From Rhododendron vialii (lineage: Eukaryota > Streptophyta > Magnoliopsida > Ericales > Ericaceae), in the NCBI RefSeq assembly GCF_030253575.1, contig NC_080559.1, forward strand, positions 30,840,501-30,904,500: 64,000 nucleotides of DNA. The letters are read 5' to 3'. Of this stretch, positions 19,985 through 46,702 are shown piece after piece; position 1 is the first letter of the stretch; each line of letters starts with the position of its first letter. A model generated the notes under the pieces. The model made no database searches, was not told where the DNA came from, and saw only the letters and a program-made list of their open reading frames with translations. A program made the translations under genes and the position numbers.

Positions 19985-20614
19985 ATGGATACTAAGGTAA
20001 TCTCCACTGGAGTCCGTTACACCCGTCTCCCGGATAGCTACGTCCGGCCAGAGTCCGACAGACCAAAACTGTCCGAGGTAAAGGATTGTGACGACGTTCC
20101 CATAATTGATCTAGGCTCTGAAGATAGAACCTCAATTGTCCAGCAAATAGGCAACGCTTGTCTACTGTACGGCTTTTTCCAGGTACTTATTCAACACAAG
20201 TAATATTTTTCTCTCATTTTTTTTTTTTATTATCGGCGAAAATCAGTATGGTCAGGATCCGTATTTTAGTTTATTTATTAATCGACTCTTGACTTTATTG
20301 GGTTTTGATCGATGTTCCAATTTGTGAAAACTTCCAGGTGATAAATCACGGGGTGTCGATGGAAGCGGCGGAGAGAATGCAAGAAGTGGCGCACGAGTTT
20401 TTCCTGTTACCGGTGGAGGAGAAAATGAAGCTGTACTCCGACGACCCAGCAAAGACCATGAGGCTGTCAACCAGTTTCAATGTGAAAAAGGAAACGGTAC
20501 ATAATTGGAGGGACTATCTAAGGCTTCACTGCTATCCTCTGGATCAGTATGTGCCCGAGTGGCCTTCCAATCCCTCTTCCTTCAAGTAAGATCCCCCCCC
20601 CCACCCCCCCCCCC

Positions 20615-20655
<41 letters not shown>

Positions 20656-22524
20656 TGCCGCCCACTTATGTTGAAAATTGACACTACAATGTGGTGGTGG
20701 TAATCTAGTGAATGAGATTAGGTCAAAGTCTCTCCACCCATTTTATTCCATTCAAGTTATTTTTAAAAAAAGGTGGTATGATGTGCGCAACAGTACGTAC
20801 CTCGTATGACAACTAGGATCAAATCCTTGCATTATCTTTATCACATCCTCGGGTTTCGTGACGTAATTGGTTATTACACCAGGTGATATTGCATCTCTTT
20901 CATACTCAATTTGTCAACTTTACGTCACTGTCATGCGACTTAAGTTATTTTATTGACAACCAATAGTTTTCTATTGGTTTTCCATTTGGCGCGTGATAAG
21001 AAAAAAGAGGTGGTTTTTTTACCCCTTCTTATAGCTATGTATTTTCCTTAATTGATAGAGTAGAAATGAGTAGTATTTACAACTACTCATAAAGTCCCTT
21101 CATTTTCCTTATTAAGAGATAAAGAATTGTCTAGGACCACAAGAGTAATGACTCATCTTTCGTTTCTAGGGAGGAGGAGATTAAGGTACTCTTCCACGTG
21201 GTAAAGGTCGCGATTATTTGATTCCTAATTATGGGGAAATCGTACACTTTTTCAAGTATAAAGTCGATACTATACAAGGTTTAAAAAACTGATTCTTTAC
21301 ACGTCGTGCCATAAAAAGCATAGCGTTTTATATGCTGTTATAACTAGATTTGAAATAGGCACAAATTATGCTTTGATTCTTTTATGGCACGTTTGGATAG
21401 AGAATTTATTTTGGGTAGATTTGTAATGAGGGGAGATTTGAAGGTAGATATGTAATGAGGGGTGATATGTTAAGAAGGTGGCCCCACCTTTTAAGAAGGG
21501 TAGATTTATAATGAGGTGTTTGGATGATTTTTTGAGAAGAGGGATTTGGAAGGTGGATACGATGGTATAAGATGTGAAATGACTTTATTACCCCCATATT
21601 TTCAATTTAATGGACAAATTAGATTAATTTCACTATAATTAGAATAAATACATATTTATCATTAATTGTGGAATAAAATAAATTCATTAAGTCTTTAAAA
21701 TGTTTAAACCTTATATGTTTTAAAAAAAAATTGGAGTTATTTTTTCGTATGGCTCTCATTTCTTACCATTAACCATTATTTTTTTAATTTGTGAGAAGAT
21801 TCTAGAATACTGTAAAAAAAGTTCAATTTTAATTGAGAGAAAAAAAGATTAAAAAAGAGAAAGAAAAAAAAGAAAACTACTCCTCCGTATCAAAGGGGTG
21901 GCATCCCACCCATTAGATCAAGAGTAGTGCTACAGGTACCGACGGGGTCGGTACCGAAATCGTAGGGACGGCCGCGCCGGGTCGTCTCCGGCCACCGGAA
22001 GGCCGATCCGAGCCGTCCAAAAATTCTAAAAAAAAAAAACGAGGGGGCCCGCGCAAGAATCAAAGGCATCCGATGTGTGTAAGGTGCTTGATCCGAACAC
22101 CCTTTTTCGTGTATATATGTATATTCCGCGGAATATACATATATACACGAAAAAAAGGTGCTCGGATCAAGCACCTTACACACCTCGGATGCCGTTGATT
22201 CTCGCAAAGGTCCCCTCGTTTTTTTTTTTTAGAATTTTTGGACGGCTCGGATCGGCCGTCCGGTGGCCGGAGACGGCCCGGCGCGGCCGTCCCTACGATT
22301 TCGGTACCGACCCCGTCGGTACCAATATCATTTCTGTTAGATCAAAACCCTCTCTAATCAGAAAAAGAAGAGAATTGTATGGGATTAAAACCCAATATGC
22401 ATTCAGAAGAGAATGTATGGGATTAAAATTTCATATCTAAAACCCACCGCGACAACCCACAGATTTCTCTCTCTCTCTCTCTCCCCACATCAAGCATCCA
22501 AACTAGAAAACGAGCAGCTAGTCA

Positions 22525-22561
<37 letters not shown>

Positions 22562-23832
22562 TTTCTGTCTTGTTTTTTCTGTCTTCGTCTTTTCTCTCTC
22601 CGTTGGTGATGGAAGATAAAAGGGGAGGGCAAGACAGTCAAATAGGAACCCGGATATAGCAACGACAGGGGTAACCCAGTTCTTAGCAAATCCACCTTCC
22701 CCCTGATTTGTAATCCCAACAGTAACAAATCCCCCTTTTAAATCAGGCATCCCTTTTCTCTTCCAAACATCGATATGGCGAGGAGGAGGATTGGCAATCA
22801 GGGGGCCTCACAAATCCGAGAGCTTCTCCCCCATCCAAACAGGCTGTTAAGGCGGTGGCATCTCCATCAGCCCTAGTACTCCTCAGTTTCGGAGGTTTTG
22901 TCGAGCTGCGGGGCTGGAAACGGGAACCAACAGCCTCGTCAGAAAACCTCGTCACTCCTTTATGGCCACAGTGACTTGTCACACCCAACTCGTCAATGTG
23001 GCACTCGATGCTTCCTTCTCTCTCTTTCTCTTTCTCTCTCTCTCAGCCTTCAAAGCCACCAGATCTTTGCCCGCGAGCTATTGTGTCATTGTTGTCACTG
23101 TCGCTAGTGTTGGCTACGGTAAAGAGTTTGGTGTTCTTTTACACCAAACTCTTTAATTTAGAGTACAAAGAAGAACAAAAAAACTCTCCGTCGGTGCTAT
23201 TGTCGAAATCGTAATCAGATATGTAATTTGTTTCTTACTTCTGCGGGTTTAGGATGGAGGCGATGAAAGATTTTAAGGGAGTGGCTTTTTGTGAAAGATA
23301 ACGATCCATGCCAGCTGACCTACTAACTCTTAACCTAACCACGTTGCTCAAAAGGTTAACCTCAACTTGTATAATAACTGATCGGAATTAATCACTTATA
23401 TTTCATAGTCAATTTCATTACATAGCCGATGTGGGACTTCACGTGAAATTTATTTGAAAGATAAGTTGTAATTCAAATTGTCATTTTTGTTAGGTTGTTG
23501 GGGTGTTAGGCTTCATTTCGCTAACAAAAATAAGTACTTTTTTAAATTAAAAGGTGATGTATTGTGAGAGAATGACTTATTTCGTAAATCACAAAATAAA
23601 TACTTAAAATTAAGAATTTTAGCAGAACGGGAACTTAATGTGTTTATAGGTATCTAAAATAGAATTTGATGTTTCATGTAGGCAAAATAACTAAAAACTT
23701 TTCAAGATTCTCCGGTAAGAATAATGCTAATGACAACCCATTGAGTTCTCAATAAGACATAAAGAGGACCAAAAAAATAAAGTTTTCTATGTGTTAAAAG
23801 TGGTTTGAAAAGTGTAAATAGCGAATCGAAAA

Positions 23833-23870
<38 letters not shown>

Positions 23871-24102
23871 GACGGTTCCGGAGACACCTAAAAGAACACT
23901 TAAAAAAACACCTCATAGTTTTCGATCAAATTTTGATGATTCGAACCGCTCAATGTGATCAAAACGTGATTTTTGTTAATGTCTCGCGGGCACCCTTAAA
24001 ATCACATTCTGCACACATTGAACGGTTCGGATCATAAAAACTTGATCGGGAACTATGAGTTTGAAATTTTGGGTGTTTTTTTGGGTGTCGTTTGAACCGT
24101 CC

Positions 24103-24142
<40 letters not shown>

Positions 24143-27100
24143 CTTGTTTAACGAACCATCCAATGATCACCAAACTTATGAAATTATCTCACGTACTAAG
24201 AAATTGGGTAGGGACCAATTAAAAATTAATTCAATCACGACTTCAAAGCCACCATCCAAGTTTCATATTAAGTAATTCAAATCAACAATCAAAGTAAATT
24301 GCAATAAAATTAAACAACAATGACACGAGATATGCGTGGAAACTATTTATGGTTAACACATTCTAAGTATAAAATAAGAACTGTGCTACTGGTATAGACA
24401 AAAAAATTGTACCAATGGGTACAAACCCCTTTTTTGTCCCATTTTTGGTCTCAAAAAAATGATCGGAGTCGCTCATATTGTTTAAAATACTTTACTTATG
24501 GTCACTACAAAAAGTAAGCTTAATCCGGTATCGGTAAGAATATTTACGAAACATCTAAACTTTAATCTATTTCGTAAATATTCTTAATAATACCGGATTA
24601 ATCTTATATTTTTTTGTAGAGACCGTAAGCAAAGTATTTTAAACAAAATGAGCGACTCCGATCATTTTTTTGAAACCAAAAAGGGATTTCTACCCATTGG
24701 TACAAATTTTTTGTCTATACCAGTAGACTTTTTGATAAAATAATGGCCTAATCTATTAAGTTTTTTATAAATCAAAATGTTTAACAAGAAGACTAATAGT
24801 TAGGAATTGCCAACTTTTACATGAAATCACATCTAACTCCTCTTCTTGATTAGTCCCTCGTGCCCCTTATTGACTCCCAGGACTCATCGAGGCAAAACCA
24901 CCTCGACTTCCGCTCTAGAATGGCTCCGTTATCATCTGCCCATGGAGATTCATAGGCATGAATGAAATGGGAAGATTGGATGTAAAATAGAAAAATTGAA
25001 TCGAACACATACCGGATTGAGTTGATTTTCTGCGCCATCCACTCAATTTTTTGTTTTAAAATTATTAAACGACTCGAATTTTATTTGTCTACCGATTTTC
25101 GGTACCCTCAGTATGGGCACTGTCGGCACCTATAACAGTAGTCCTTAAATTAATGCGTCATAAAGTCTTGAAAATCCCGGGATTCTCTATAAGTGCGGAT
25201 CTCGTGCACAGTCAGGCCGGGTACAAAAATCAAGTTGAGAAAACAATTAAAAAATGTATCACATGGCTTGCGTCAACGCGGCATCGTCATCTGGTGGCAG
25301 ATATGACCGTTAAAACCGAGTAAAGTGTCGTAAGCGATGACGGTATTTGCAAGTGACATCCCTGACATCATCAATCGACACTGGTGATGCTAACAATGTC
25401 GTCATAGCGTGGAGTACAACTTCACCACTTGATACTGGAGTAGTACAAGGGATAACGTCGACTCTTCGTGACGTGGTGTACAACTTGTCCGGTGGATCCT
25501 TTACCAAGTACTCCTGCGTGGTCCCCGCACCCCGTGTGGGATAGGCTAAAATGGAAAAAATCCAACAAAATTTTTTTTTTTTGAGACATATGTCGTTCTT
25601 ATCGCATGCATCAGTTTCAAGTTCATTTAGCGAAAGTAACTTCTAGACAAACTTTTTAAGAAAATTCCTTCTTAAGTAGGGATGACAATTCACCCCGAGC
25701 CAGCCCCTGCCCGATCCCGAACGGGGCGGGGCGGGTTTTCATCAAATTTTCTGGTACTAGGACGGATTCAGGGGAAAATATTAAAATATCCGATCAGGAC
25801 GGGGTGGGTTTGGGTTGATGTTATACTGCCCTAAAATATTTTTCCATACAAAATTATATTTTTAATCTAATTCTTTATCATTAAACTTCAAAATATATAT
25901 TTATACCCCACTATTTTTCTCATTATTCTAAAAAACCTATTTTTTTCGTTATATTTCATCATTATAATAAGAGATAACACCTTATATATATAACAATTTT
26001 TTTCTTTTTTCCTTTAGTTTTGATTTTTTTTTTCTTATTTTTCACGGGACAGGTAAATCCAATCCCTAAACGGGACGGGAATGGGGACACCCACGAATAA
26101 CCCAAGCGGGATTGGGGTATTCCAAAACTCGCCCCGCCCCGTTGCCATTCCTATCCCAATCCCTAAGCCACCTTTGGCAAAAATTTTGGCTGTTTTTCCT
26201 TGATTGTTACAATCGGATCAAAATTTTCACATCCTATCATCTTTCTAGATCGAAATAATAAAAAAAAGTATATATTGTATTATTGTTGTTATGGAAAAGG
26301 GTAACAATTTACGGAATTGAAAACGAACATTACACGTTATCACTCTTTTCCTGAAAGTCTTGGTACATGCGGTGACCGTCCTGCATGCCTATTGCGGCCC
26401 CACAAAAATACCTAAATTATTTATACCTTTTAAAATAATATTTTATGGAGCCTGTAAAAAATTAATAATATTTTATGAGATCCTGTAAAAAATTAGTTCT
26501 AACAAATATCAGTAGATATGTTTTTTGAATTCGTATGGTCTAAACTACAAAATACGAATTAAAAAAATATACTTACCAATATCCGTTGTAATTGATTTTT
26601 TACAGGATTTCATAAATATTATTTTAAAATTTATGGTTATATTTTGGTATTTTTGTATGGCCCGAAGGCCCTCACTACACGTGCGGTGGTTATAATGCTT
26701 CTGCTTTTTTTTATTTTATATATTTTAGAATGCATCCAGTACACTTTTTACTTTAGTCAGCTGTCATTCCGCCAATGGACTTATAATTCAGTGACACTTA
26801 TTTTTTTTTTTAAATAGAAGGTGATGGTTCAATTCTCGCCAGGAGTGCGAGTACTTGGGGTGATAATTGATGTCCTTTGGAATTACTCCACCTGCTTGCC
26901 TCTTGATGGTTCCCCTTTAGAGGTAGATTAAACATCTATTGAGTGAGGAAATAAAAAATAAAAGCAAACTTTCGTTGTACTACATTTTGGGTAGTACACA
27001 CTTGTTGTCTCTTCATAATTTAATTGAGTGCCGTGCCAACACACACTCACACATTTTTTTTTATTGAAAAAAAGTAGTAGTACTCCTTTTCCGCCGCAAA

Positions 27101-27594
27101 ATATTTCTTAAAGCAACTTTCAAGCCAAACACCAAGACAGACAAATTTTGCCGCTAAAAATATAGTAACCACTCCTTTTTGTATCTAAATCTCACCCACG
27201 ATCTAACCTATGACGTTGACGTGGCGGGTGGATCTCACGTCACGTCAGCAATAATTCAAAATTTAAATAAAAAAAAATGTGGAAATCTTTTTTCCTCAAG
27301 TCTGGTTCTTTTACAGAGAGAGAGGGGGGAAGGAGGTCGACCAATCCCAACTCCGGCAACCAACCTTCGCCCATCAGGCCATCACCCTTACATCCACAAC
27401 ATCGCCGCCGCCCGTCACCACTACCACATCCACCGTCGGTCCACCCACCTCCTCGATATCCTTCAACCTCTGTTGCTGCCTCCACCAAAACCCTAACGAC
27501 CCCCACACAACCCCCACACCTCCTCAATCAAGAAACCCTCCCTCTGCTGCCGTCGTCGGCCTCAACCGCCACCGTCAACTCTTACCTAACAACA

Positions 27595-27625
<31 letters not shown>

Positions 27626-30600
27626 ACTTGGAGGTGGATTGTCGTCAGTTGTGATGTGTCGATTTTGCCAAAGGGTTGGTTGCCGGAGGAGAATCCGGTG
27701 GTGGTGTGAGTTGCCGGTGGTGGTGAGTGTAAAAGTTCTCTGGGTAATGAGAACTTCAGCTTTGTTTTTTAGTATTTCTTTCTGTTTTCGGCTGTTGTTG
27801 ACGAGATATGGAACCTACCTAGCACGTTAGCGTCATGGGTTTGGTCGTTGGTGGGATTCGTGATCCCTAGATTTATTGCTTTCCGAAATGTTGATTGAGA
27901 GAGAGAGAGATAAGTGGCCGGTGCCATGAGTGGAGTGGAGTATTTTATTTTGATTTGGTTTTGAAAGTGTTTGCTTCGCTGGTCTTAAATGTCGGCAGAA
28001 TAAAGGGCCACCGAAGCAAAGGATTAGTGAATCGTGACGTGACGTCTGTGTTCTTTTTTTCGAGAGAAGTCATTCAAATCAAAGATTTTCATTTTCATCA
28101 ACATCGATTGGATGACGTGGGTGGCGACGTCCGTTTCTTGATTCTTCTAATTTTCGTTGGAAATCTACATGGAAAAAATGTGATAAAAAATTAGTATTCA
28201 ACTAATATAACTTGGATATGAATTTGGCTTCCATAAACAATTACGCATTAAAATTTCATTTCGTTAAGATTTTTATTTATTTTTTATTTTACGAGATAAA
28301 GTCATTTTCTTACAGTATCACCTTTAATTGAATCTACATAGGGTAATTTTTTTTATTCTAAATGTTGTTTATAGAGAATTCAATTTGAATCTACATGGGG
28401 CAATTATCATGTTTCTATTTGTATAAAACATAAAAATTTGATAGAGACCTGCACTGCTCCGAATAGAACGACAATAAGGTGGGAGAATGATCTATATTGA
28501 TAACTATATAGCGGAACAGAGCCTTAATATACTAGTAGTATTCAACTTGTGGGGTGGTGGTTTTTTGAAGTAGCTTGATGGATAGATCCAATCGATCGTA
28601 ATCCTCTCCTAAGTTGACCTACAAACGGAAAAATCATTAGGCTCAGTTTGGATGACTGGAATCTTTAGTAAAAATAGGAATGTGATTACTAATAATCAAT
28701 TTTCTAGGAATTGTATTCAGTAGGAATAAGAATATGATTACTAGGAGGCTTAGTTTTTTTTTTTTTTCACGGACTAGAAGGCTCTGTTTGGATGACCAAA
28801 ATCTTTAGTAAGAACAGAAATGTGATTACTAGGAATCAAATTCTTAAGAATTTTATTAAGTGGGAATAGGAATATGATTACAAGAAATGAAATTCCTAAG
28901 AATACAATACCTGAAGTAATTTCATTCCAGTATTTGGATTAATTCAATAATCTTATGCATGTATAAATTATTTTGGAAATTTATCAAAGTCAATATCTCT
29001 TTTTTTTTTAATTGATTGGGCAAGAAATCTAAGATTCGTATGAGGTAAGGGAGAGATTAGATTCCTACTCAATCTGGTAATGTGATTCCTGGTCGGATGT
29101 GTCGTCAGGAATCACAATTCTATTCCTGTCTCTCCCAAACAAGGAAATCCTGGGAGTGTAGCATCACATTCCCATTATTGTTCCTTCAAAACGTCGAAAT
29201 CATGAAAGTATGATGTCACATTTCCATTCCTTCTCAAAATTCTTATCATCCCAACTGAGCCTTAGTTCTACACTTCTACTTGGCTTCAGTTAGCCGGACG
29301 GACAACTGCTTCGATTCGCGACGATGCTTGGCAGACGCGTGGTCGGACCCGGGTGTTAAGAGCGTGACACCATAACATGCGTACCATCAACTGACTTATT
29401 GGCCCAATCTCGGTGCACATGCCAATCCGGGTCCGACCCACCCCACAACTATTGTTGAAAAACAAAAATAGGAGTACCATTGAGTATTGACTTTATAAAC
29501 TTCCAACTGGGGACCGGTCTGGTCGGATCTCCCTAGGGAACATCGATTGTATTACTCCCCGTACCAGCTAAAGACCGGTCTAGTTGATATCCCTCGGGAC
29601 CATCAAATTTTGCTGAACGCATTCTTTTGTAGCAAAGAGTCTCCATCGGTGATGTATTTCTTGTGAATCCTCTCCGGTCCAAATTTTAGATGGGAGCCGG
29701 CTGTCGTCGAAATTTTGACCGTTTAATGCTGCAATTAATAGTTTGGATCTGCTTAGAAACTTTCCGCACGAAGAATTGAATTCTTCTCGCGAGGAGTTTT
29801 GCGAGAAAATCTGAACCATTAATTTTTCCGACGTGCGACCCAGATTAGGACTGTTTCTTCCGGTTCAAATATTTAATCAGTTGAGTATGAGAAACGAACT
29901 AATGCTAATCCAAACCTCTTTCTTTATTCGTCCGGGAGTGACGTACCTAAGAGGATAATAAATTAATAATCCCACACCAAGTGTACTACCCACGGCCACT
30001 TGGCCACGATAATAACATAATGTTTACTATAAGAATTTTCTTTTGGTACTTCAGAATATTCTTTTTTTATTTTATTTTATTTTAGGAGAAGCAAGAAATA
30101 CTTCAGAATATTCTGTTTATAAATTTATTGAGTGAGTCTACAAACCATGAAATCAGGATCCAATCCATGACCACTAACGTGGCGGGATGGACCCACATCA
30201 ACAGCTGAAAAAAAAAAAACAAAAAAACCAAAAAACCAAATTTGGTTCTCTCTCCTCCCTCTTCACCTACTCCCATGGACGCTCCCCACCTTCCCTCAGA
30301 CCCCCTCCACTCGCCCACCCATAACCCACTGGTCTCACTCCCACCCGCCCCCGCCGCTGCCGGCGATTCCACCCAAACGATCTCCTGCAAAAGAAAAATA
30401 AATTTCATAAAAGTTGCAAAAAATTTGAGTTTGGAACACCCACCAAACAATTTCAGAAATATAAATTACATGATCTATGGAGGGGACTGGAATTGGAAGG
30501 CAGGAATTTGAGTTTGGGTGGAATCGGTGGCGGCGACGGCTGGTGGGAGTGGAGGCGTGGCGGCAGCAGTAGAGGTAGGAGGAGAGGATGGGGTGGACCG

Positions 30601-33600
30601 ACACAGGTGATGGGCGGAGGGCCGGAGGGTTGGTCGCCGGAGGTGAATCCAGTGGTGGTGGTGGGAGTTGCCTGTGGCGATGGGTGTTGATTTCTCTTCC
30701 TCCCTCCCTCCCTCCCTCCATGAACCAGAGATGGGGTTGGGAGAAATTGATTTTTCATTTTTTTTTTTAATTTTGGATTTTCAGTGGTAGACGTTGGTAG
30801 TAGTGGGAGTCGCCGGTGGTGGTGGCCCTGGTGGGTCGACCTTCTTCTATCTCTGGTGCCAGGGAAGTCTCTCTGCAAAACAGAACCAGATCAGGGAAAG
30901 AAAAAAATTCAATTTTTTTCTTTATAAGTTTGGGCTGTTGCTGACGTAGCATGGGACCCACCCACCACGTCAGCATCATGGATTGGGTCGTGGGTGGGAT
31001 TCATGATCTCTAGACTTTTCGAAATCTATTATCGTAACCCTGTGAAATATATTTAAAAAATTGAGCCGAAAGATCCATTAATTGAGTACAGCCATTGAAA
31101 TGATATCATGTCGGACCACCTAGCGTAAACGTACACACAAGCGGTTCTTTTAGACCGGTCCCGCATTAGAAGATTTATTTTGTGCCGTATGTGAAATGTT
31201 ACTTTCCCGTCCCAATTTAATTATTCTTTTTAGAGTTCGTCTCACTTTTCAATTAATTGTATCGTGTAACTTATAATATTTTATATGATTTCAAAAATAT
31301 TGTATTATAAAATTAATCGAGATCTATTAAACAAAATTCATATTCAATATGAAATTCTTTGCGGATTTAAAGATCGGTCTTGCTATTGTCAGCCCACTGG
31401 GCTGACGATAAGTATACTAAAAGACAAGGAAAACACGTATTTTTGTGTACTTTTTATACCTTTAATACACATTCACACACTCGCTATTGTCAGCACATTG
31501 GGCTGATTTTAAAATTTTCCTTTGAAGATATAACTACTTTTTTAACTGGTTAAAATAAAACAAGAAACAATTAAATTGGGATGGAAGAAGTAATTTTTTG
31601 GAACCGACAACTGGTCACTGTCTAGTTTGGATTTTTGTGGGCCAGAGAAACAATGATCGAAACCATTCATGTTATAGAGCTCATTAAGAACTTCAACCTC
31701 ATCATAAATCATATTTATCGGATATTGTTTGATACTCGGTCATATATTATCGGATACTGTATGATACCCTTTAAGTAATAACTTTACATGTTGGAATTTC
31801 TAATACGAAACTAAATACTCCCTCCGTTCCCATTTTTTTGGTCCCTCATTCTATCCGGATAGAAAATTGATTATAATTTTAGATTGGTAATACTGTTTAT
31901 ATGCAATACGGATCTTGTTTGTTTAACATCAGTAATTCAACTCTTGAAGGCCTCACACTTAGATTTGTCTTAGAGCATCTCCAATTTAATACTCTATTTT
32001 ATTTATAAAGCGATTTTAGAGGAGATCCTCCATATTTTCTCCCATCCTCTAAATATGGAGGATCAAAATTCCATCCTCTCAAATAGAGGAGGCTTGAAAG
32101 GATGGATTGAAGGAGTTTAATACTCTCAAATGGAGAAATAGAACATGAGTTGGAGATGTTCTTAGGCCTCAAAAGAGGTTGGGCCGCGCCTGGCAATTGA
32201 AAGGGAAAATGGTATCTGTACACCACCTAGCGTACACGTAAAGAGCCTAGGCCCAGTTTTTGGGCTGTCCATGTTGGTTTTTCATAGTGCTGTGCAACTA
32301 GGCCCAGTTCTTTCTGCCGACCAGCCTGCTCACGACTAATCAAATTGTATGTAAAACAAACCACAGTTCTAGATCTCCACTTGTGTTTGACTCGCTAAGA
32401 ATTCTTTTGACACTCACTCGTTAAATGACATCACAACACGCTCGCCAAAGACTGCATCGAGATCGAGGAATATACAACGGAGCGTTTCTGCTAAGCTAAA
32501 AGTTATGAACTACTCCTTGTAATACTACTTTGTAGTTAAAATGAGAAGGACGAGATGAAAAAAGTTTGAAGAATGGATGTGGAAATAAATTTTAGTGCAG
32601 GAGAAACAACCTTACTTTTGATAATATATTATAGACGAGAAAGATAGCGGAAATGGGACTAGACACGAAGTGGGTACAAACACGAAGTAGGTTAGGATCA
32701 AAGAGAGAGAGAAAGAATACAAGGGAAGATATTATAAAACACATGGATACTTGTATTAACTGACTTGCCCCTTTACAACAGGGAAGGGACCTCCTTTTAG
32801 AGGCATCAAAGGGTCCCTTGCTTACATCATAGAACAGTATGTACGTACAACCATAATTAGTTTACATTATTACAAGTTACTATTACTAGTCCACATACGT
32901 AGACTTTTTCTACCTATTATCTGCAACACTTAATACTCCTGACAAACTACTTTTACATTTATGGACAATTCAATTGTATACCCCAATTATTCACCTTCTC
33001 TGGAAAAGAGGATAACACTTCCATACGTTATATTATACCACACAAAAGAGACAGTTGGTATAAGCACGTGATTGTCACTGTGGATCATCTGAGCTACTTT
33101 CTTCATCTCTGTCAGTCAAGTGATACTGGGTCAAAAGATAGCGAATATTTTGGCGTCATTATTCCGGATAAGTATCATTGAATTTCCAGTTTGCAGTTTC
33201 ATAATGGAGGAGAGATGAGGGAACTTCTGCAGGTGTCAATCCATTGAGTGAACACAGTGTTTGAGTCATAAGTGATGTAGGAATTGGTTTTGCCGAAATA
33301 GCATGATGAAAATAGAATGATTTTGGTACAGTAGCAAGCCTGCCTACAAATGATTTTAGCAAATGATGTTTTGACCTCAACAATTGGAGTTCCTCTATCC
33401 CTATTCTAATGCTATTTTCTATCATGATGTTTTAACAGGGACACTGTGAGTGATTATTGCAAGCAAGTTAGGGAACTTGGGTTCAGATTGCAGGAGCTCA
33501 TAGCAGAGAGCTTAGGCCTGGAGAAAGACCACATCAAAGATGTGTTGGGTGAGCAAGGACAACATATGGCCGTCAACTACTACCCACCGTGCCCGCAACC

Positions 33601-34181
33601 GGAGCTGACCTACGGGCTGCCAGGCCACACCGACCCGAATGCCCTCACCATTCTCCTGCAGGACCTTCAAGTCTCAGGCCTTCAAGTCCTCAGGGATGGG
33701 ATGTGGATGGCTGTCAAACCCCACCCGAAAGCGTTTGTCGTTAACATCGGCGATCAATTACAGGTGACCTCTTCTTTAAAACCTTCCTGCACATAATACA
33801 GTTAAACAATGGAAAAGGAATTTGTAGAGTCCATTCCTGTGTTTTTTGAAAAACAGATTATACTCTTCCTCCTCTTTTTTTTTTTTTTTGGTTTTTTCAC
33901 CTTCAAAAAAGGGTTTATATAGAAGTGAGTGATTGTAGGCTCTGAGTAACGGAAGATACAAAAGTGTGTGGCACAGAGCCATTGTCAACGCCGATAAACC
34001 GAGGATGTCCATTGCCTCTTTCCTTTGTCCCTCCAACGAAGCCTTGATAAGCCCTCCGGCGAAGCTCACAGAGGATGGAACTGGAGCCGTTTACAAGAGC
34101 TTCACCTATGCGGAGTATTACAAGAAGTTTTGGAGTAGGAATCTGGATCAAGAACATTGTTTGGAACTTTTCAAGAATTAA
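19985..34181 (+). CDS. DMR6-like (DLO): DMR6-like 2-oxoglutarate/Fe(II)-dependent oxygenase, 4 exons, 337 aa
   Basis: Exons: 19985-20182, 20338-20585, 33439-33763, 33939-34181; all introns are GT..AG and phases join cleanly. The product has an N-terminal DIOX_N region (residues about 37-147, with VPIIDLG and FFQVINHG) and a C-terminal Fe(II)/2OG domain (about 185-300). Visible are NYYPPCP, the metal ligands in HTDPNALT (His, Asp) and VWHRAIV (second His), and PRMSIASF, the RxS that binds 2-oxoglutarate. The ending FTYAEYYKKFWSRNLDQEHC is characteristic of DMR6 and its DLO paralogues. Known family members hydroxylate salicylic acid (S5H/S3H type) and act as negative regulators of immunity, cytosolic or nuclear. 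Length fits the family (about 337-349 aa). The gene looks intact; intron 2 is extremely long. A flavone synthase I-type activity is an alternative within this clade. Confidence 0.93.
20592..20652 (+). repeat. Poly(C) tract running into (CT)n, beside a splice donor
   Basis: Only about six bases after the intron 2 donor there is a C-run of about 30 bases broken by one A, then about 14 CT units. The complementary strand is a long G-run. Such tracts are polymorphic and error-prone in assemblies. Confidence 0.9.
21922..22336. mobile_element. Near-perfect palindromic MITE, 415 bp, Mutator-like 9-bp target duplication
   Basis: The two arms, 21922-22128 and 22129-22336, are almost exact inverted copies meeting at TATTCCGCGGAATA with no loop. 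The flanks carry TTAGATCAA at 21913-21921 and 22337-22345, a 9-bp duplication as expected for Mutator-like insertions. Arms include GGTACCGACGGGGTCGGTACC and GGACGGCTCGGATCGGCC. Any transcript through it would fold into a hairpin of about 200 bp. The superfamily call depends on the duplication length alone. Confidence 0.85.
22527..22558 (+). repeat. (TC)n microsatellite
   Basis: About 15 CT units. Related CT-rich runs are at 22467-22484 and 23016-23044. Open frames here are products of the repeat. Confidence 0.9.
23834..24140. mobile_element. 235-bp MITE embedded in a (TA)n microsatellite
   Basis: The element proper (23869-24103) has inverted ends GGGACGGTTC and GAACCGTCCC and imperfect internal pairing (AACGGTTCGGATCA with its mirror). 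It is bordered on the left by a TA-run of about 34 bases and on the right by one of similar size. This is the arrangement described for rice Micron-type elements, which insert into (TA)n; that family link is inference. Confidence 0.7.
24387..24725. mobile_element. Inverted-repeat MITE, about 340 bp
   Basis: TACTGGTATAGACAAAAAA at the left mirrors TTTTTTGTCTATACCAGTA at the right, with long imperfect arms that also include ATGATCGGAGTCGCTCAT. The centre repeats GAATATTTACGAAA as a mirror. No target duplication was recognised. Confidence 0.8.
25677..26153. mobile_element. hAT-like MITE with GC-rich ends, about 480 bp
   Basis: The left end TAGGGATGACAA and inverted right end TAGGAATGGCAA, each followed by GGGGCGGGGCGGG-like sequence, fit a widespread class of plant hAT-derived elements. 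The interior is AT-rich. The expected 8-bp duplication is not visible. Confidence 0.6.
26390..26670. mobile_element. Inverted-repeat MITE, about 280 bp
   Basis: GCGGCCCCACAAAAATACC at the left pairs with GGTATTTTTGTATGGCCC at the right. Internal ATCCTGTAAAAAATTA and TTTTTTACAGGATTTCA also mirror each other. Exact ends are uncertain. Confidence 0.6.
27181..27876. mobile_element. Non-autonomous element with GC-rich core, copy 1
   Basis: The ends are imperfect inverted copies: a left arm with ATCTCACCCACGATCTAACC then GACGTTGACGTGGCGGGTGG, and a right arm with TTGGTCGTTGGTGGGATTCG. A second copy lies at 30134-31016. The core (about 27300-27720) is a C-rich, Pro/Ser/Thr-coding-like segment with GAGA tracts. 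Its 183-codon open frame (27279-27830) has no recognisable domain. It could be a captured 5' gene end. Confidence 0.55.
28640..29261. mobile_element. PIF/Harbinger-type MITE, 622 bp, TTA target duplication
   Basis: GGCTCAGTTTGGATGA at the left and TCATCCCAACTGAGCC at the right are inverted copies, flanked by TTA (28637-28639, 29262-29264). The first about 120 bp are partly repeated in direct orientation from about 28780 (GGCTCTGTTTGGATGACC), indicating an internal duplication of the 5' end. Confidence 0.8.
30134..31016. mobile_element. Non-autonomous element with GC-rich core, copy 2
   Basis: The right arm (CACGTCAGCATCATGGATTG then GTGGGTGGGATTCATGATCT) mirrors the left arm (GGATCCAATCCATGACC, AACGTGGCGGGATGG). 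The core contains GGAGGTGAATCCAGTGGTGG, close to a core segment of copy 1 at about 27687. Open frames on both strands are long but low-complexity and are not called as genes. Confidence 0.55.
31202..31590. mobile_element. Stowaway-type MITE, about 390 bp, TA target duplication
   Basis: CTTTCCCGTCCCAATTTAATT at the left pairs with AATTAAATTGGGATGG at the right, flanked by TA on both sides. The interior has two direct copies of GCTATTGTCAGC(C/A)CA(C/T)TGGGCTGA at about 31382 and 31482, suggesting a second small insertion. Confidence 0.65.
31973..32161. mobile_element. PIF/Harbinger-type MITE, 189 bp, TTA target duplication
   Basis: GAGCATCTCCAATTTAATAC at the left mirrors GAGTTGGAGATGTTC at the right, with TTA at 31970-31972 and 32162-32164. 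It is a compact member of the family also cut by the left window edge. Confidence 0.75.
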
Positions 34182-34184
34182 TAA

Positions 34185-34401
34185 GAGAATAAATTCTTTA
34201 CACTACCGTTGTAAACATTTGTTTTCTCCAAATCAATTATATTGCGCCACGTCGCCATGTTTTCTTGATTGGGACGCCACTGTTTTGTATTGCAACTGCA
34301 AAACAGTGGCGTCCCAATCAATAAAACATGGCGACGTAGTGCAATATAATTGATTTGGAAGAAACAATTTTTTACAACGGCGGTGTAAAGAATTTATTCT
34401 C
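34185..34401. mobile_element. 217-bp hairpin MITE abutting the DMR6-like stop codon
   Basis: Inverted ends GAGAATAAATTCTTTACAC and GTGTAAAGAATTTATTCTC are perfect. The centre pairs as TGGGACGCCACTGTTTTG with its mirror around a short loop, so the whole element folds on itself. The flanks carry AATTAATAA at 34176-34184 and 34402-34410, a 9-bp duplication (Mutator-like). The left copy contains the last Asn codon and the TAA stop of the DMR6-like gene. If the gene's polyadenylation site lies beyond it, the hairpin is part of the 3' untranslated region. Confidence 0.88.
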
Positions 34402-34449
34402 AATTAATAAAGGTGTTGTAGCTGTCCGATTCATGAAACCGCCCTCATG

Positions 34450-34684
34450 CTCCCTCTGTTCTATATTGTCGGCCTACTGCGGAAAGACATGCAATTTTCG
34501 GTTAAAAAAATAAAGAATTTCCGTGCATAATTTTAAAGTTTTTCGATACCAAATTAAAGAAACTAATTGAGTATTTAATTTGATGTCGAGAAATTTATAA
34601 TATTATGTGCGGAAGTAGCACGTTTTTTTACCCTTAAATTGCACGTTTTTTTAGTGGTAGACCGACAATATGGACCGGAGGGAG
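34450..34684. mobile_element. Stowaway-like MITE, about 235 bp
   Basis: CTCCCTCTGTTCTATATTGTC at the left mirrors GACAATATGGACCGGAGGGAG at the right. The right flank is TA, the left is TG, so the target duplication is imperfect or the left border is off by a base or two. Confidence 0.65.
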
Positions 34685-35505: not shown

Positions 35506-38158
35506 ATGGATAAGGGAGAGAAGGCGGGGAAGATGGCGATCAAATCATCATGGGGTGCGAGAAAAGTACTGCGTGTGAAAGAGGAGGTGGAGGTAAACAT
35601 GAGAGAGAATGGAGAGAGAGAAGAAGACTGCTACATCCTTGATTCCGACCCAAATGACTCCCTAATAATTGACCTCTCCAAGCTCTCCATATCCAGTGAT
35701 CTTGATGCCACAGACATTTCTGTCCTCGCTGAAAAAGGCCAGGTAAAATGCATATGAATAATTGAATGGGAGTACCGCATACTCCATATGAAATGTGTAC
35801 TCATTTATGCTTCAACGGACAGACTTAGGCCCGTCCGCTAAGGTTTTTATTTTCTAAGTATTTACTTTCCGCTTTACGAAACAGATCATTCTCTCACAAT
35901 ATATAAGTACTTATTTTTCTTATCGGAACATGGCCTTAGGCCATCCACAGTGGTATAATCAAAAAAGGATAACCAAAAGTTGACACATCAGCTTTTGATT
36001 ATTCACTCAAGAGGTTGCTAAGCTTAACAATGTTAAGCTTCACTACGGTCACTTCTAGTCCATAATCAAAATATGGGGTCCACTACAATTTCATTCTCTC
36101 TCCCCCCTGTTTCTCGTCATTCACTTCCCTCAATTTACGTTTTTTATGAGTTAAAATATATCGATTCCCTTTCTTAATTTTGAAAAAAAAATCGATGACT
36201 TCCTTGCCTCCTATTATGATTTTTTCGTTTTTCTTTTTTTCCGGGAGTGGGTAGTAGAAACAGGAAAGAAGAGTGAAACACCTTAATCCGGCGACGATGG
36301 ATTGAATTGTAGATGATCGAGAAATATGAGTTTCACTTTTGGAGGAAAAGAAAGAGAAATAGTGTGTTGGCGAAGTGAAAAAGATATAGAGTAGCGAAAA
36401 AGCTTGGCTACATAAAAATTTTATTCTTCAATTTTATTTTTTTAACCAAAAAAAAAAAGAGTGGGCGAAGAAGGGAAGAAGAAAATACTAGTTGAAACAC
36501 ATGTGTATACAAATTTTGGAACTAGTTAACTTATGTGGTGTAGGATCCACAAATTTTGATTATTGAAAAAGGTTGTTAGTTTTGATTATCCAAAGCTCAA
36601 AATTTGATTATTTCTAAGGATTCTGTTAAGTTTGATTATACCATTGTGAGTAATTTTTTGCACCAATATTGTTAACTTTAAAAACAATTGGCGTTTGATT
36701 ATACTACTGCGGATGGCCTTAGATGCCCAATTCAGTTCAAAGCTCTTGGGAATGGATTTCTATTCAAGTACCAATACTACAAATACTACATTAGTACAAT
36801 TGAGATTACGGTTAGCGATATTGTGAGTTCAACGCTAGCCGTTTCGATTTTGAGACTTTTTTTTTTTTTTTTGTCAAAATCATAACAATCTAGTATTTTT
36901 TACTATGAAAAAGTTATATTGAGATTTGATGCCCCATTTGAAAGTTACTAAGATTGTTATGATTTTGGAGTTCAACTAAAAAAACCTCAAGAAACTAAGG
37001 CTCCGTTTGATAATCGGCTCCCGCCATAGGATTGGACTATTAATGGGATTGGTTGCTAATTCTTTGTTTGCCTTCACTCTCAATGGCCGGACTAACTTAC
37101 CCATGGGACTGTGAGTCATGGGATTAAGGTGGATTACTAATACCTCCTGGGACATGGTATTATCAATCCAGTCCGGAGTCCCTCCAATACAATGACGAAA
37201 ATACCCATGACTTTCTTAACTAATTATTCTTTGTTTGGTTCTATGACTATCTTAGGGCTCATGTACGAGAATTCTAGAGTTAAAATTTAATTATGACCCT
37301 TTTAGAATAAAATGATCAAAAAAATAAAATCTTCGCACCGGTTCAAAGAAATTAAAAATTGGAACACTTAATTTTTTTAGACTGTTTATATATTTAAAAA
37401 ATATTGTTAAAAAATTAAGTGCTTCAATTTTTAATCCGTTTGAACTGGTGCGAAGATTTTATTTTTTTTATCATTTTATCCTAAAGAGTCATAATTAATT
37501 TTTTTAATCATATGTTATCCTCTAGTTTTGCATAAGGGTAAAAATAGAAATGTTTACTATCAATCCAATCCTATCTCATGTGAAACAAACATAATATTGA
37601 TCTAATCTCATCCCAAACAAACATATTCATTATCAATCCCTTCTCATTACCAATCCCAATCATAATCCCATCTCCTTACGAATCTCACCCCTCTAATACT
37701 TTTATCAAACGATAATGAATGTATGTGATGATGATGTATAGGTGGCATGTAGAGATTATCCACATTCAAGGCATCTCTGCTTTATTAATCCCTTTGAGAA
37801 GACGCCTCATGAAAGCTACTGTGAACTGGTAAAATCTCAAATCAAGCCCATATATTAGAGGCTTTTTTTTTAATCCCTTTTCGACTAGGAGTATTTCTTT
37901 TGAAATCTTACGAATTGTTTCAAAAAGTTTGTACGCCAAAGTGTGTTCTTTAACGGTGTAGAATTTGGCCAAAGTGTGTTCTTTAACGGTGTAGAATTTG
38001 GTGAATTGCAGTGCTACTGTTTCGTTTGTGACAGGGTTGCCCCATGCAAAAAATGGTATGGAGTTACAGGGCATTGCCATGCGATTGACAACTTTTACTG
38101 GACCTGTCGGAGGAGAGACAAAAGAGAGAATAAAAAACTGAACCGACGAACACCTTAA
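35506..38158 (+). CDS. RPM1-interacting protein 13-like protein, copy A, 3 exons, 156 aa
   Basis: Exons 35506-35742, 37742-37828 and 38012-38158, all in phase 0 with GT..AG introns. Exon 1 encodes a charged N-terminus and the acidic stretch EEDCYILDSDPNDS, then DLSKLSISSD. Exons 2-3 encode the conserved Cys/His core: VACRDYPHSRHLC, TPHESYC, CYCFVCDRVAPC and GHCHAID. The tail is basic. This pattern matches plant proteins annotated as RPM1-interacting protein 13 (RIN13), named for binding the RPM1 immune receptor; the Cys/His set suggests metal binding but that is inference. Exon 1 also contains a second in-frame ATG (MAIKSS). A paralogue lies 9 kb downstream on the same strand. Intron 1 carries two MITEs. 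Name is from memory of the family; the structure is well supported by the paralogue. Confidence 0.8.
35939..36718. mobile_element. PIF/Harbinger-type MITE, 780 bp, in intron 1 of RIN13-like A
   Basis: GGCCATCCACAGTGGTATAA at the left and the inverted right end (GGCCATCCGCAGTAGTATAA) share about 25 bp with few mismatches, flanked by TTA at 35936-35938 and 36719-36721. The interior has no transposase-like frame. Confidence 0.85.
36999..37711. mobile_element. Second copy of the 14.2-kb PIF family, with a nested hairpin
   Basis: The left end GGCTCCGTTTGATAATC follows TAA. The right part, CCATCTCCTTACGAATCTC then TTTATCAAACG, is the inverse of the left part of the element at 14171-14543, so the copies are in opposite orientation. 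A separate near-palindrome at about 37286-37497 (ATTATGACCCTTTTAGAATA and its mirror) is inserted within. The right terminus is degraded. Confidence 0.6.
37935..38000 (+). repeat. 33-bp tandem duplication just before the exon 3 acceptor of RIN13-like A
   Basis: Two identical or nearly identical 33-bp units starting GCCAAAGTGTGTTCTTTAAC lie back to back and end 11 bases before the acceptor AG. They duplicate the branch-point and pyrimidine region. Paralogue B lacks it. Confidence 0.85.
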
Positions 38159-44749: not shown

Positions 44750-46702
44750 ATGGGAATGGGGAAGAATGAGGCGAAAGGGGAGATACTGATCGAGGTACCG
44801 GGGTCGCCGGATAACCAGGGGTCCCCAGTGAGAGCCGTACTGTGTCTGAAAGATAAGGTAAACATGAGAGAGATTGAAGAGAGAGAAGACTGCTTCCTCC
44901 TTGATTTCGACCCCGACGACTCCGCTGTTGACCTCTCCAAGCTTTACCACCAGTCTGATAAATCTGATGCCCATGACGTCTCTGTCGTCGCTGTAGTCGG
45001 CCACGTATATCTTATCCCCCATTCTCCCGCATTAACTTGTTCGGTTACTAGGTAGTTGGTTTGTCGATAACCTAATTGAAGCGTGCAGTTTTTCCATTTG
45101 CGAGGCGCTCACGCTGGGTCTGGAGAATTCAGTTCCAAATGATTCGTAATGGGTCAACATTAGTGACGATGATCTTCGTCACTGAGTTATTAGTTTAAGC
45201 AAATCCAGACACCAAGAGTCATTGAAATTTGTGCCTAATAGGGAGTATAATAATAATACACGCATAAAATGCAGAATTTAGTTCGAAAAGATTCGTAATG
45301 GGTCGACATTAGTGACGATTATCTTTGTCCCAAATTTCTGCTATATTACTACGACTTTGTGCTTCACCGCTTCAATGCCTTCGCATAACAGGAAGTACAC
45401 TCAAAATGGCACATGCTTGTCAACAGGTACGACAAGCCACACTACATAAGCTCGAAAAAGGAAAATAGGCATGTCGCGACTTTTGCTAAAGCCAAGACCC
45501 AACATGGAAAAACATAGCTTTTTGACGGGTAGCATGGCAAAGCCATGGCTATGTACACCTGGCTAGGCAAGCCAAGGCACAACATGTGCTCATCACCGGC
45601 CTAGGCCATGACACAAGGAACATACTAAGCCAACTTGGGCATGCCAAGACTGGCTAGGCAAGGCACGACAAGACGTGTGCTTGTCACCAGGCAAAGCAAG
45701 GCATGGCACGGCACGACTCTATCGAGCAAAAACTAGATTTCCTTGGCCGTTTGCTTTCAATTGTTCGTGCTTTCACGTCTGTGGGTAATGCTCGAAAAAA
45801 AGACCTAAAATGGCATGGCAAGCGGATTGCTCGTCACTGGGTTAGGCAAAGCATGGCACAACTCTATTGAGCAAAAGCTAGATTTCCTCGACTGTTTGCC
45901 TTCAATTGCTCTTGCTTTCACGTCCAATGCTCGAAAAAAAGACCGAAAACGGCATGCTATTTTAACCGGTATTCCCTTGGCTCGCTTTGAATCTTGGTTC
46001 GCCGCCTTGTACCTTCTCTAAATGGATGCTTCTTACTGGCACAAGCACTCATCTAAGGCAATATTTGTAATTCTTAATATTTTTGGGTTTTGTGTAACTA
46101 AATGGATGTACATGGCTTTGATGGTATAGGTGGCATGCAGAGATTATCCACATTCAAGACATCTCTGCTTGAAGTACCCCTTTGGGAAGACGCCTCACGA
46201 AACCCACTGTGAACTGGTAATTTTAGTACAGAAGATTTCTGTCTCAATAGCAACACTACCAAGCCTTTCAAAACTAGTGCAATAATCTTTCCAAAATGAA
46301 GCTTGCTCTTTTTACTCACTTCTGTTTGCTCTGTACAGGGAACTCAATTTTTTTTAAGACGACAAGCAATTAATGTATACCTGCGAAAAAATTTGACTAG
46401 ATTTGCAACATCATCCCTCTTTCTCTACTTTTAAAACTGTTTTTGGTTATTTATGAGTGTTAGTTTATGAAAATCTGCATGTTTTTTCTTAGAATTTTCT
46501 AAAAAAGCAAACATTTTGATTTTGTGGGTGTAAATTGCAGTGCTACTGCTTTGTTTGTGATACTGCTGCGCCTTGCGATCAATGGTCAACAGGAGTTCAT
46601 AATGGGCATTGCCATGCCATTGACGATAGGGACTGGAAGTATATGAGGCGGCTGATGAGAAACAAAAATGCTACTTACACCTCCTCTTCTTCTTCAGAAT
46701 AA
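44750..46702 (+). CDS. RPM1-interacting protein 13-like protein, copy B, 3 exons, 167 aa
   Basis: Exons 44750-45004, 46130-46216 and 46541-46702; introns are phase 0 as in copy A and exon 2 is the same size (87 bp). The protein has the acidic EEREDCFLLDFDPDDS motif and DLSKLYHQSDKSDAHDVS in exon 1, then VACRDYPHSRHLC, TPHETHC, CYCFVCDTAAPC and NGHCHAIDD, and a Ser-rich tail. The motif spacing is the one seen in copy A and in plant RIN13-type proteins. An upstream out-of-frame ATG at 44745 overlaps the leader and could dampen translation. Intron 1 contains two sets of degenerate direct repeats. The pair is a tandem duplication now separated by the - strand gene fragments. Confidence 0.82.
45120..45960 (+). 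repeat. Direct repeats in intron 1 of RIN13-like B
   Basis: A block with GATTCGTAATGGGTC(A/G)ACATTAG occurs at about 45125-45180 and 45280-45335. A larger block with GGCATGGCA and CTCTAT(C/T)GAGCAAAA(A/G)CTAG occurs at about 45690-45822 and 45846-45960. Between them is a run of short GGCAAGGCA / GGCATGGCA-type units (45400-45720). Confidence 0.7.

Follow-up and report, generated by a model that had tools for sequence, protein, structure and literature searches.

An Inverted-Repeat Element Lies Three Bases past the Stop of an Intact Gene of the DMR6 Type

The window (the whole 64,000-nucleotide stretch of Rhododendron vialii DNA analyzed here) contains a gene for a DMR6-type 2-oxoglutarate/Fe(II) oxygenase, with four exons over 14.2 kb, GT/AG introns, and an open frame of 337 amino acids (Table 1). 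The first exons were located with paralogs from contig C7; because exons 1 and 2 were found 12.9 kb upstream of exon 3, a truncated pseudogene is rejected. The protein has both domains of the enzyme family, DIOX_N and 2OG-FeII_Oxy in Pfam, and carries WRDYLRL, NYYPPCP, and HTD...H (motifs at residues 123, 195, 212, and 268). In a grapevine paper, WRDY/FLRL, NYYPPCP, and HDH mark the DMR6-DLO clade, with WRDY/FLRL being clade-specific (PMC8961545); the host protein has the same motifs and the same two Pfam domains as these oxygenases. After the window gene itself, exon 3 is matched best in the assembly, among the best 150 of 157 candidates, by a five-copy DMR6/DLO-like cluster (G000:C7:8984275-9090945; 63 to 64% identity). 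One cluster member, L010, reads WRDFLRL against WRDYLRL in the window gene, which is only a hint of the DMR6 rather than the DLO branch; we infer that the window gene may be the DMR6-type copy and the cluster DLO-like. No MITE within a DMR6 gene was found among the literature titles listed.

Table 1. Window coordinates of the gene, the element, and candidate poly(A) motifs
Feature	Position	Strand	Basis
Exon 1, DMR6-type 2-oxoglutarate/Fe(II) oxygenase gene, 66 codons	19985-20182	+	tblastn with contig-C7 paralogs; splice sites, frame
Exon 2, with WRDYLRL motif	20338-20585	+	tblastn with contig-C7 paralogs; splice sites, frame
Intron 2, 12,853 bp, with several other inverted repeats	20586-33438	+	
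Exon 3, NYYPPCP and HTD motifs, 2OG-FeII_Oxy	33439-33763	+	splice sites, frame, motifs
Exon 4, stop TAA 34179-34181	33939-34181	+	splice sites, frame
Left target-site duplication AATTAATAA (holds the final Asn codon, the stop TAA and an in-frame TAA after it)	34176-34184		direct reading
Hairpin 5′ arm, TIR GAGAATAAATTCTTTACAC at outer end	34185-34287		repeat search
AATAAA from the element's TIR, begins 7 nt downstream of the stop; candidate poly(A) signal	34188-34193	+	motif only
Hairpin loop, 11 nt	34288-34298		repeat search
Hairpin 3′ arm	34299-34401		repeat search
AATAAA within the 3′ arm; possible poly(A) signal	34320-34325	+	motif only
Right target-site duplication AATTAATAA	34402-34410		direct reading
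AATAAA across the end of the right target-site duplication; overlaps the stop codon in the empty site	34406-34411	+	motif only

Direct reading of the gene's end gives AAG AAT TAA TAA, with the last AAT at 34176-34178, the stop TAA at 34179-34181, and a second in-frame TAA at 34182-34184. A 217-bp inverted-repeat element (34185-34401) begins 3 nt past the stop and is flanked by identical 9-bp copies of AATTAATAA. Its arms are 103 nt each and 91% complementary, with 11 nt between them; 94 of 103 positions pair, leaving nine mismatches and the loop. With the same 11-nt gap, the best pairing at any center in three mononucleotide shuffles of the window was 47 to 50 of 103. The predicted RNA fold of 34170-34415 has an energy of −153.3 kcal/mol (z = −25.4), and 0 of 200 shuffles was equally good. 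The earlier note had described a hairpin MITE three bases after the TAA of a DMR6-like gene with coding untouched, and a 9-bp target duplication holding the last Asn codon, the stop, and a second in-frame TAA. Direct reading, the arms, and the shuffles confirm the place and kind of the element; the duplication is present twice and identical, the coding sequence is intact with its stop retained, and the three protein motifs and both Pfam domains bear out the gene type. Its "fully self-complementary" stands as a near-perfect hairpin, but "fully" is slightly overstated: the nine arm mismatches rule out full self-complementarity.

Other repeats and open reading frames lie nearby. A second inverted-repeat element (34450-34684), 39 bp past the right target-site duplication, ends in CTCCCTC...GAGGGAG and is presumably Stowaway-like by these ends, with TA after its right end and TG before its left; two MITE-like elements are stacked behind the same DMR6-type gene. 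Hairpin-forming inverted repeats also occur in the 12.85-kb intron 2, at 21920-22338 (188-nt arms, 91% complementary), 24386-24726, and 26423-26634. Downstream, the plus-strand open reading frames (ORFs) 35506-35757 and 44750-45055 share a similar acidic stretch (EREEDCYILDSDPNDS and EEREDCFLLDFDPDDS) and resemble the first exons of two related genes; neither has a Pfam match above the cut-off of E 0.1.

The Element Is Probably One of Hundreds of Mutator-Type MITEs

Target-site duplications (TSDs) separate the main MITE classes: 9 to 11 bp in the Mutator type, 8 bp in hAT, 3 bp in Tourist (PIF/Harbinger), and a TA target duplication in Stowaway (Tc1/mariner). The 9-bp duplication of the window element is within the Mutator-type range, and copies of its family, the window copy included, match at 8 or more of 9 TSD positions in 30 of 39 cases (at all nine in 23 of 39). 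When TSD lengths of 7 to 11 were compared at 39 places, 9 bp fitted most and 8 bp did not, which rejects a hAT MITE; the 9-bp AATTAATAA likewise rejects both Stowaway and Tourist. The family has the other marks of Mutator-type MITEs, being short and multicopy with terminal inverted repeats (TIRs), mostly 168 to 172 bp long with the window copy at 217. A known microRNA precursor is rejected by Rfam, where the best match scored 67.8 bits and the gathering score is 110; every match listed for the element fell below the gathering score of its family, and another hairpin of the window (21900-22360), used as a control, scored similarly below threshold. That the window element is a MITE is thus close to certain, and its features point to a nonautonomous element of the Mutator type.

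Genome searches covered an assembly of 532.6 Mb in 13 contigs. A search with the element returned 759 first-look candidates, the best 40 of which were scored, and 39 places other than the window copy were fetched. One of them, L033 (G000:C10:36186600-36187684), spans 444 bp between its outer TIRs with a perfect 9-bp TSD; it is read as two copies of the MITE, compounded or nested, and was left out of the family set, so that 38 other copies remain. Thirty-four of these are 170 to 172 bp long (the remaining four are 161, 162, 162, and 187 bp), and their median identity to their consensus is 93.6%. Since the first 39 copies had been picked by similarity to the window copy, 12 more were drawn from the TIR pattern list. 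These were hand-picked from the first TIR places (C1-C5) of 725, a 215-bp copy on purpose, so no frequency is taken from them; both ends are present in 11, nine are 168 to 172 bp long, one is 151 bp, and one is 215 bp. At one mismatch or fewer, the TIR motif has 353 + 372 matches in the assembly against 0 + 0 for the reversed-pattern control, and the family therefore has hundreds of copies. In the consensus fold, an ordinary copy of ∼171 bp has arms of ∼68 nt and one asymmetric loop of ∼35 nt.

MULE transposase domains are abundant in the assembly (best 150 of 1102 candidates scored). At 10 of the 150 scored MULE loci, examined with short flanks of 1.5 kb on either side, the TIR was absent at up to four mismatches, and no element with family TIRs plus a transposase was found among them. 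For part of the TIR text, no transposon title appeared among the literature matches listed. Mutator elements make up 41.5% of plant MITEs in a survey (PMC12550479); the window element shares with them a nonautonomous character (as judged from its features), short length, TIRs, many copies, and a 9-bp TSD, but it is a completed palindrome and matched no named family. Mutator/Foldback elements such as Tm1 of root-knot nematodes also have long self-complementary termini, 9-bp TSDs, and MITE-like members. The Tm1 termini are largely variable tandem repeats and no target preference was reported for them (PMC3169594), whereas the arms of the window family are simple and 68 nt long, and its targets are AT-rich.

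This preference is seen in the 30 copies with at least 8 of 9 TSD positions matching, where A+T is 86.1% in the TSDs vs. 61.6% in the 100-bp flanks. The TAATAA stop region may simply have been a good target for such a family; because the family targets AT-rich sites, the landing on a stop codon is explained without function. A transposase, presumably supplied in trans, would have inserted the MITE into the AT-rich 9-bp target AAT-TAA-TAA at the end of the gene. The insertion was tolerable because the duplicated target retains the stop codon; the protein would have stayed unchanged, and the duplication and the frame are both read directly at the locus.

Two Copies May Have Become Full Palindromes from Opposite Arms

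In the window copy the loop sequence is present twice, in opposite directions. Half-by-half alignment scoring against 41 family copies gave its two halves 164 and 163 against "loop + 3′ arm" and 117 and 107 against "5′ arm + loop". A second full palindrome, L080 (215 bp; G000:C2:20462548-20462762), has a perfect 9-bp TSD, TTCTGCAAA, and two mismatches over the outer 102 arm positions. Its halves score the other way around (192 and 192 against "5′ arm + loop"; 126 and 126 against "loop + 3′ arm"), which suggests that the arm used for its completion was not the one used in the window copy. Two features of the window copy occur in both its arms and in 0 of the 38 other copies, namely a T at arm position 25 and GTGGCGTCCC, a string carrying two additional bases; arm position 5 does not tell which arm was the donor. 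In the window copy all 23 pairs nearest the loop are perfect, as could follow from recent copying or constraint; 0 mismatches in 23 at ∼10% divergence is not very improbable.

The alignment scores thus favor a history in which an inverted copy of one half of the element (loop + 3′ arm) replaced the other half, which would yield the 217-bp near-perfect hairpin. Inverted-repeat template switching is the most likely route for such copying, and we consider it the probable, if far from assured, origin of the palindrome. For the two palindromes together, the simplest reading would be two independent events, each copying one arm plus the loop inverted over the other arm. Template switching between inverted-repeat arms, with arm homogenization, is described in yeast (PMC8604942), and template switching in TIR transposons of animals is a compatible background (PMC8277862). 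Palindrome completion in MITEs was not found among the literature titles listed.

The opposite order of events would make the full palindrome ancestral, the 171-bp members having arisen by internal deletion of one of its two loop copies. MITE families often contain deletion derivatives; however, only two full palindromes were seen, the window copy and L080, with opposite donor arms, and each was the sole full match in the search with its own center (all four candidates scored for the window copy; best 40 of 100 for L080). Searching for the L080 type by exact pattern also gave L080 alone, the reversed control of this pattern giving 70 + 70 matches to another repeat and being uninformative on chance. 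We therefore consider an ancestral palindrome improbable and retain completion from one arm as the preferred origin.

The Stem Has Decayed as Is Usual in the Family

Over its outer 68-nt arms, the window copy pairs at 60 of 68 positions (88.2%), the family median being 89.7% (39 copies); 12 of the 38 others are lower. Arm decay is therefore ordinary for the family and gives no sign of selection preserving the hairpin; with a stem no better kept here than elsewhere, selection on the hairpin is rejected as an argument for function. Six of the nine arm differences in the window copy are transitions, and among the 29 copies whose length is exactly 171 bp, 173 of 299 changes are C>T/G>A. Such an excess fits what ordinary decay of methylated cytosines would produce. 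After completion of the palindrome, decay would have continued at the family's usual pace.

The 103-nt arms have diverged by 0.093 substitutions per site (Jukes-Cantor). Plant substitution rates are a few per billion years, and by rough inference the arms were last alike several million years ago, a date for the arm copying and not strictly for the insertion. At this age the element may well have been inserted long ago and be fixed in the species, and presence or absence of the element might not vary among accessions.

The same transition excess, being consistent with methylated cytosines, could also be read as a mark of an element that acts mainly on the next downstream gene, by small-RNA-directed methylation of its upstream region. 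The ORF that starts at 35506 is suitably placed, on the same strand and 1.3 kb past the stop. The excess is family-wide, however, and not specific to the window copy, and Pfam gives no match for the ORF at E 0.1, so the gene itself is unproven; we regard an effect of this kind as very unlikely.

Consequences for the Transcript and for the Gene Are Probably Small

Whether the hairpin matters to the DMR6-type gene depends on where its transcript ends. The 105 nt joined across the empty site contain a single AATAAA, which overlaps the stop codon; the occupied site has the three motifs in Table 1 and a further one at 34509. The TIR motif could end the transcript ahead of the hairpin and keep most of it out of the mRNA; if polyadenylation uses this signal, the hairpin would never be completed. 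The element might then be chiefly a terminator that gives an unusually short 3′ untranslated region (UTR), with the hairpin outside the mature mRNA: insertion kept an AATAAA close to the stop (34188-34193) and moved the old downstream sequence 226 bp away. This is a motif occurrence only, though; AATAAA is frequent in AT-rich DNA, recurs at 34320, 34406, and 34509, and at 34188 sits within a stem. We hold a terminator role to be a minority possibility and put the presence of at least part of the hairpin in the mRNA at slightly better than even. Among the literature titles listed, nothing relevant was found on MITEs in connection with poly(A) signals or stop codons, or on Rhododendron MITEs.

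The closest precedent for an effect on the gene is rice Ghd2 (PMC5338036). Its 3′ UTR contains the stowaway-like MITE OsT38, an inverted region of 217 nt that represses translation; OsDCL3a is needed for the repression, and precise excision of the MITE leads to more protein with mRNA unchanged. Three other MITE-bearing 3′ UTRs in the same study also repress a reporter. The two cases share an inverted-repeat MITE, of 217 nt by coincidence, at the 3′ end of an intact gene with coding unchanged. OsT38 is stowaway-like, whereas the window element has 9-bp Mutator-type duplications; moreover, transcription through the element, 24-nt small interfering RNAs (siRNAs), and translational repression are documented for Ghd2, and at the window gene they would be predictions. 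Overexpressing the two MITE-derived siRNAs left Ghd2 mRNA and protein both unchanged in that study, and small RNAs alone would therefore not prove repression.

By analogy, Ghd2-type translational repression is possible at the window gene. If transcripts cross the element, a 103-bp stem right after the stop might be a Dicer substrate or hold translation down, as in Ghd2. In its full form, the hairpin would lie in the DMR6-type mRNA and be bound or cut by a Dicer-like enzyme, with less protein at the same mRNA level and a plant somewhat less susceptible. Beyond the Ghd2 precedent and the three other repressing 3′ UTRs, this reading draws on the long stem (−153 kcal/mol for 34170-34415) that begins 3 nt past the stop. 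It is set against ordinary arm decay, the AATAAA at 34188, which may shorten the transcript, and the Ghd2 transcript end, which lies 340 nt beyond the MITE (PMC5338036). We judge a functional repressor rather unlikely.

The earlier note had also stated that such hairpins are known elsewhere in plants to feed small RNAs or repress translation, and had offered dampening of this gene as its own conjecture. Translational repression has its precedent in Ghd2, whereas small-RNA feeding is not by itself the route there, given the siRNA overexpression without effect (PMC5338036). Dampening by the window copy is not supported by its ordinary arm decay (12 of 38 lower), its subthreshold Rfam scores, or its own AATAAA at 34188. 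Measurable dampening thus appears unlikely, and the net effect on the gene is most likely small or none.

Implications

The window element is a well-formed and probably old copy of a Mutator-type MITE, inserted where the coding sequence of an intact DMR6-type gene ends. We have good confidence in the overall explanation that such a MITE landed there, was completed to a palindrome, and has little effect. An insertion of this kind is ordinary for plants; the completion of the palindrome in two copies from opposite arms is the more interesting by-product.

If the hairpin is in the mRNA, the locus would offer a natural test of a 3′-UTR MITE tuning a susceptibility-type gene with the protein untouched. 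It is conceivable, if hardly probable, that the family repeatedly makes long hairpins by copying either arm and that the window copy is a Dicer-dependent brake on salicylic-acid breakdown; were this true, palindrome completion would be a route from harmless MITEs to strong double-stranded-RNA triggers. The two full palindromes, with their opposite donor arms, suggest a way for near-perfect hairpins to arise in an otherwise loop-bearing MITE family, and their origin bears on how MITEs enter small-RNA pathways.
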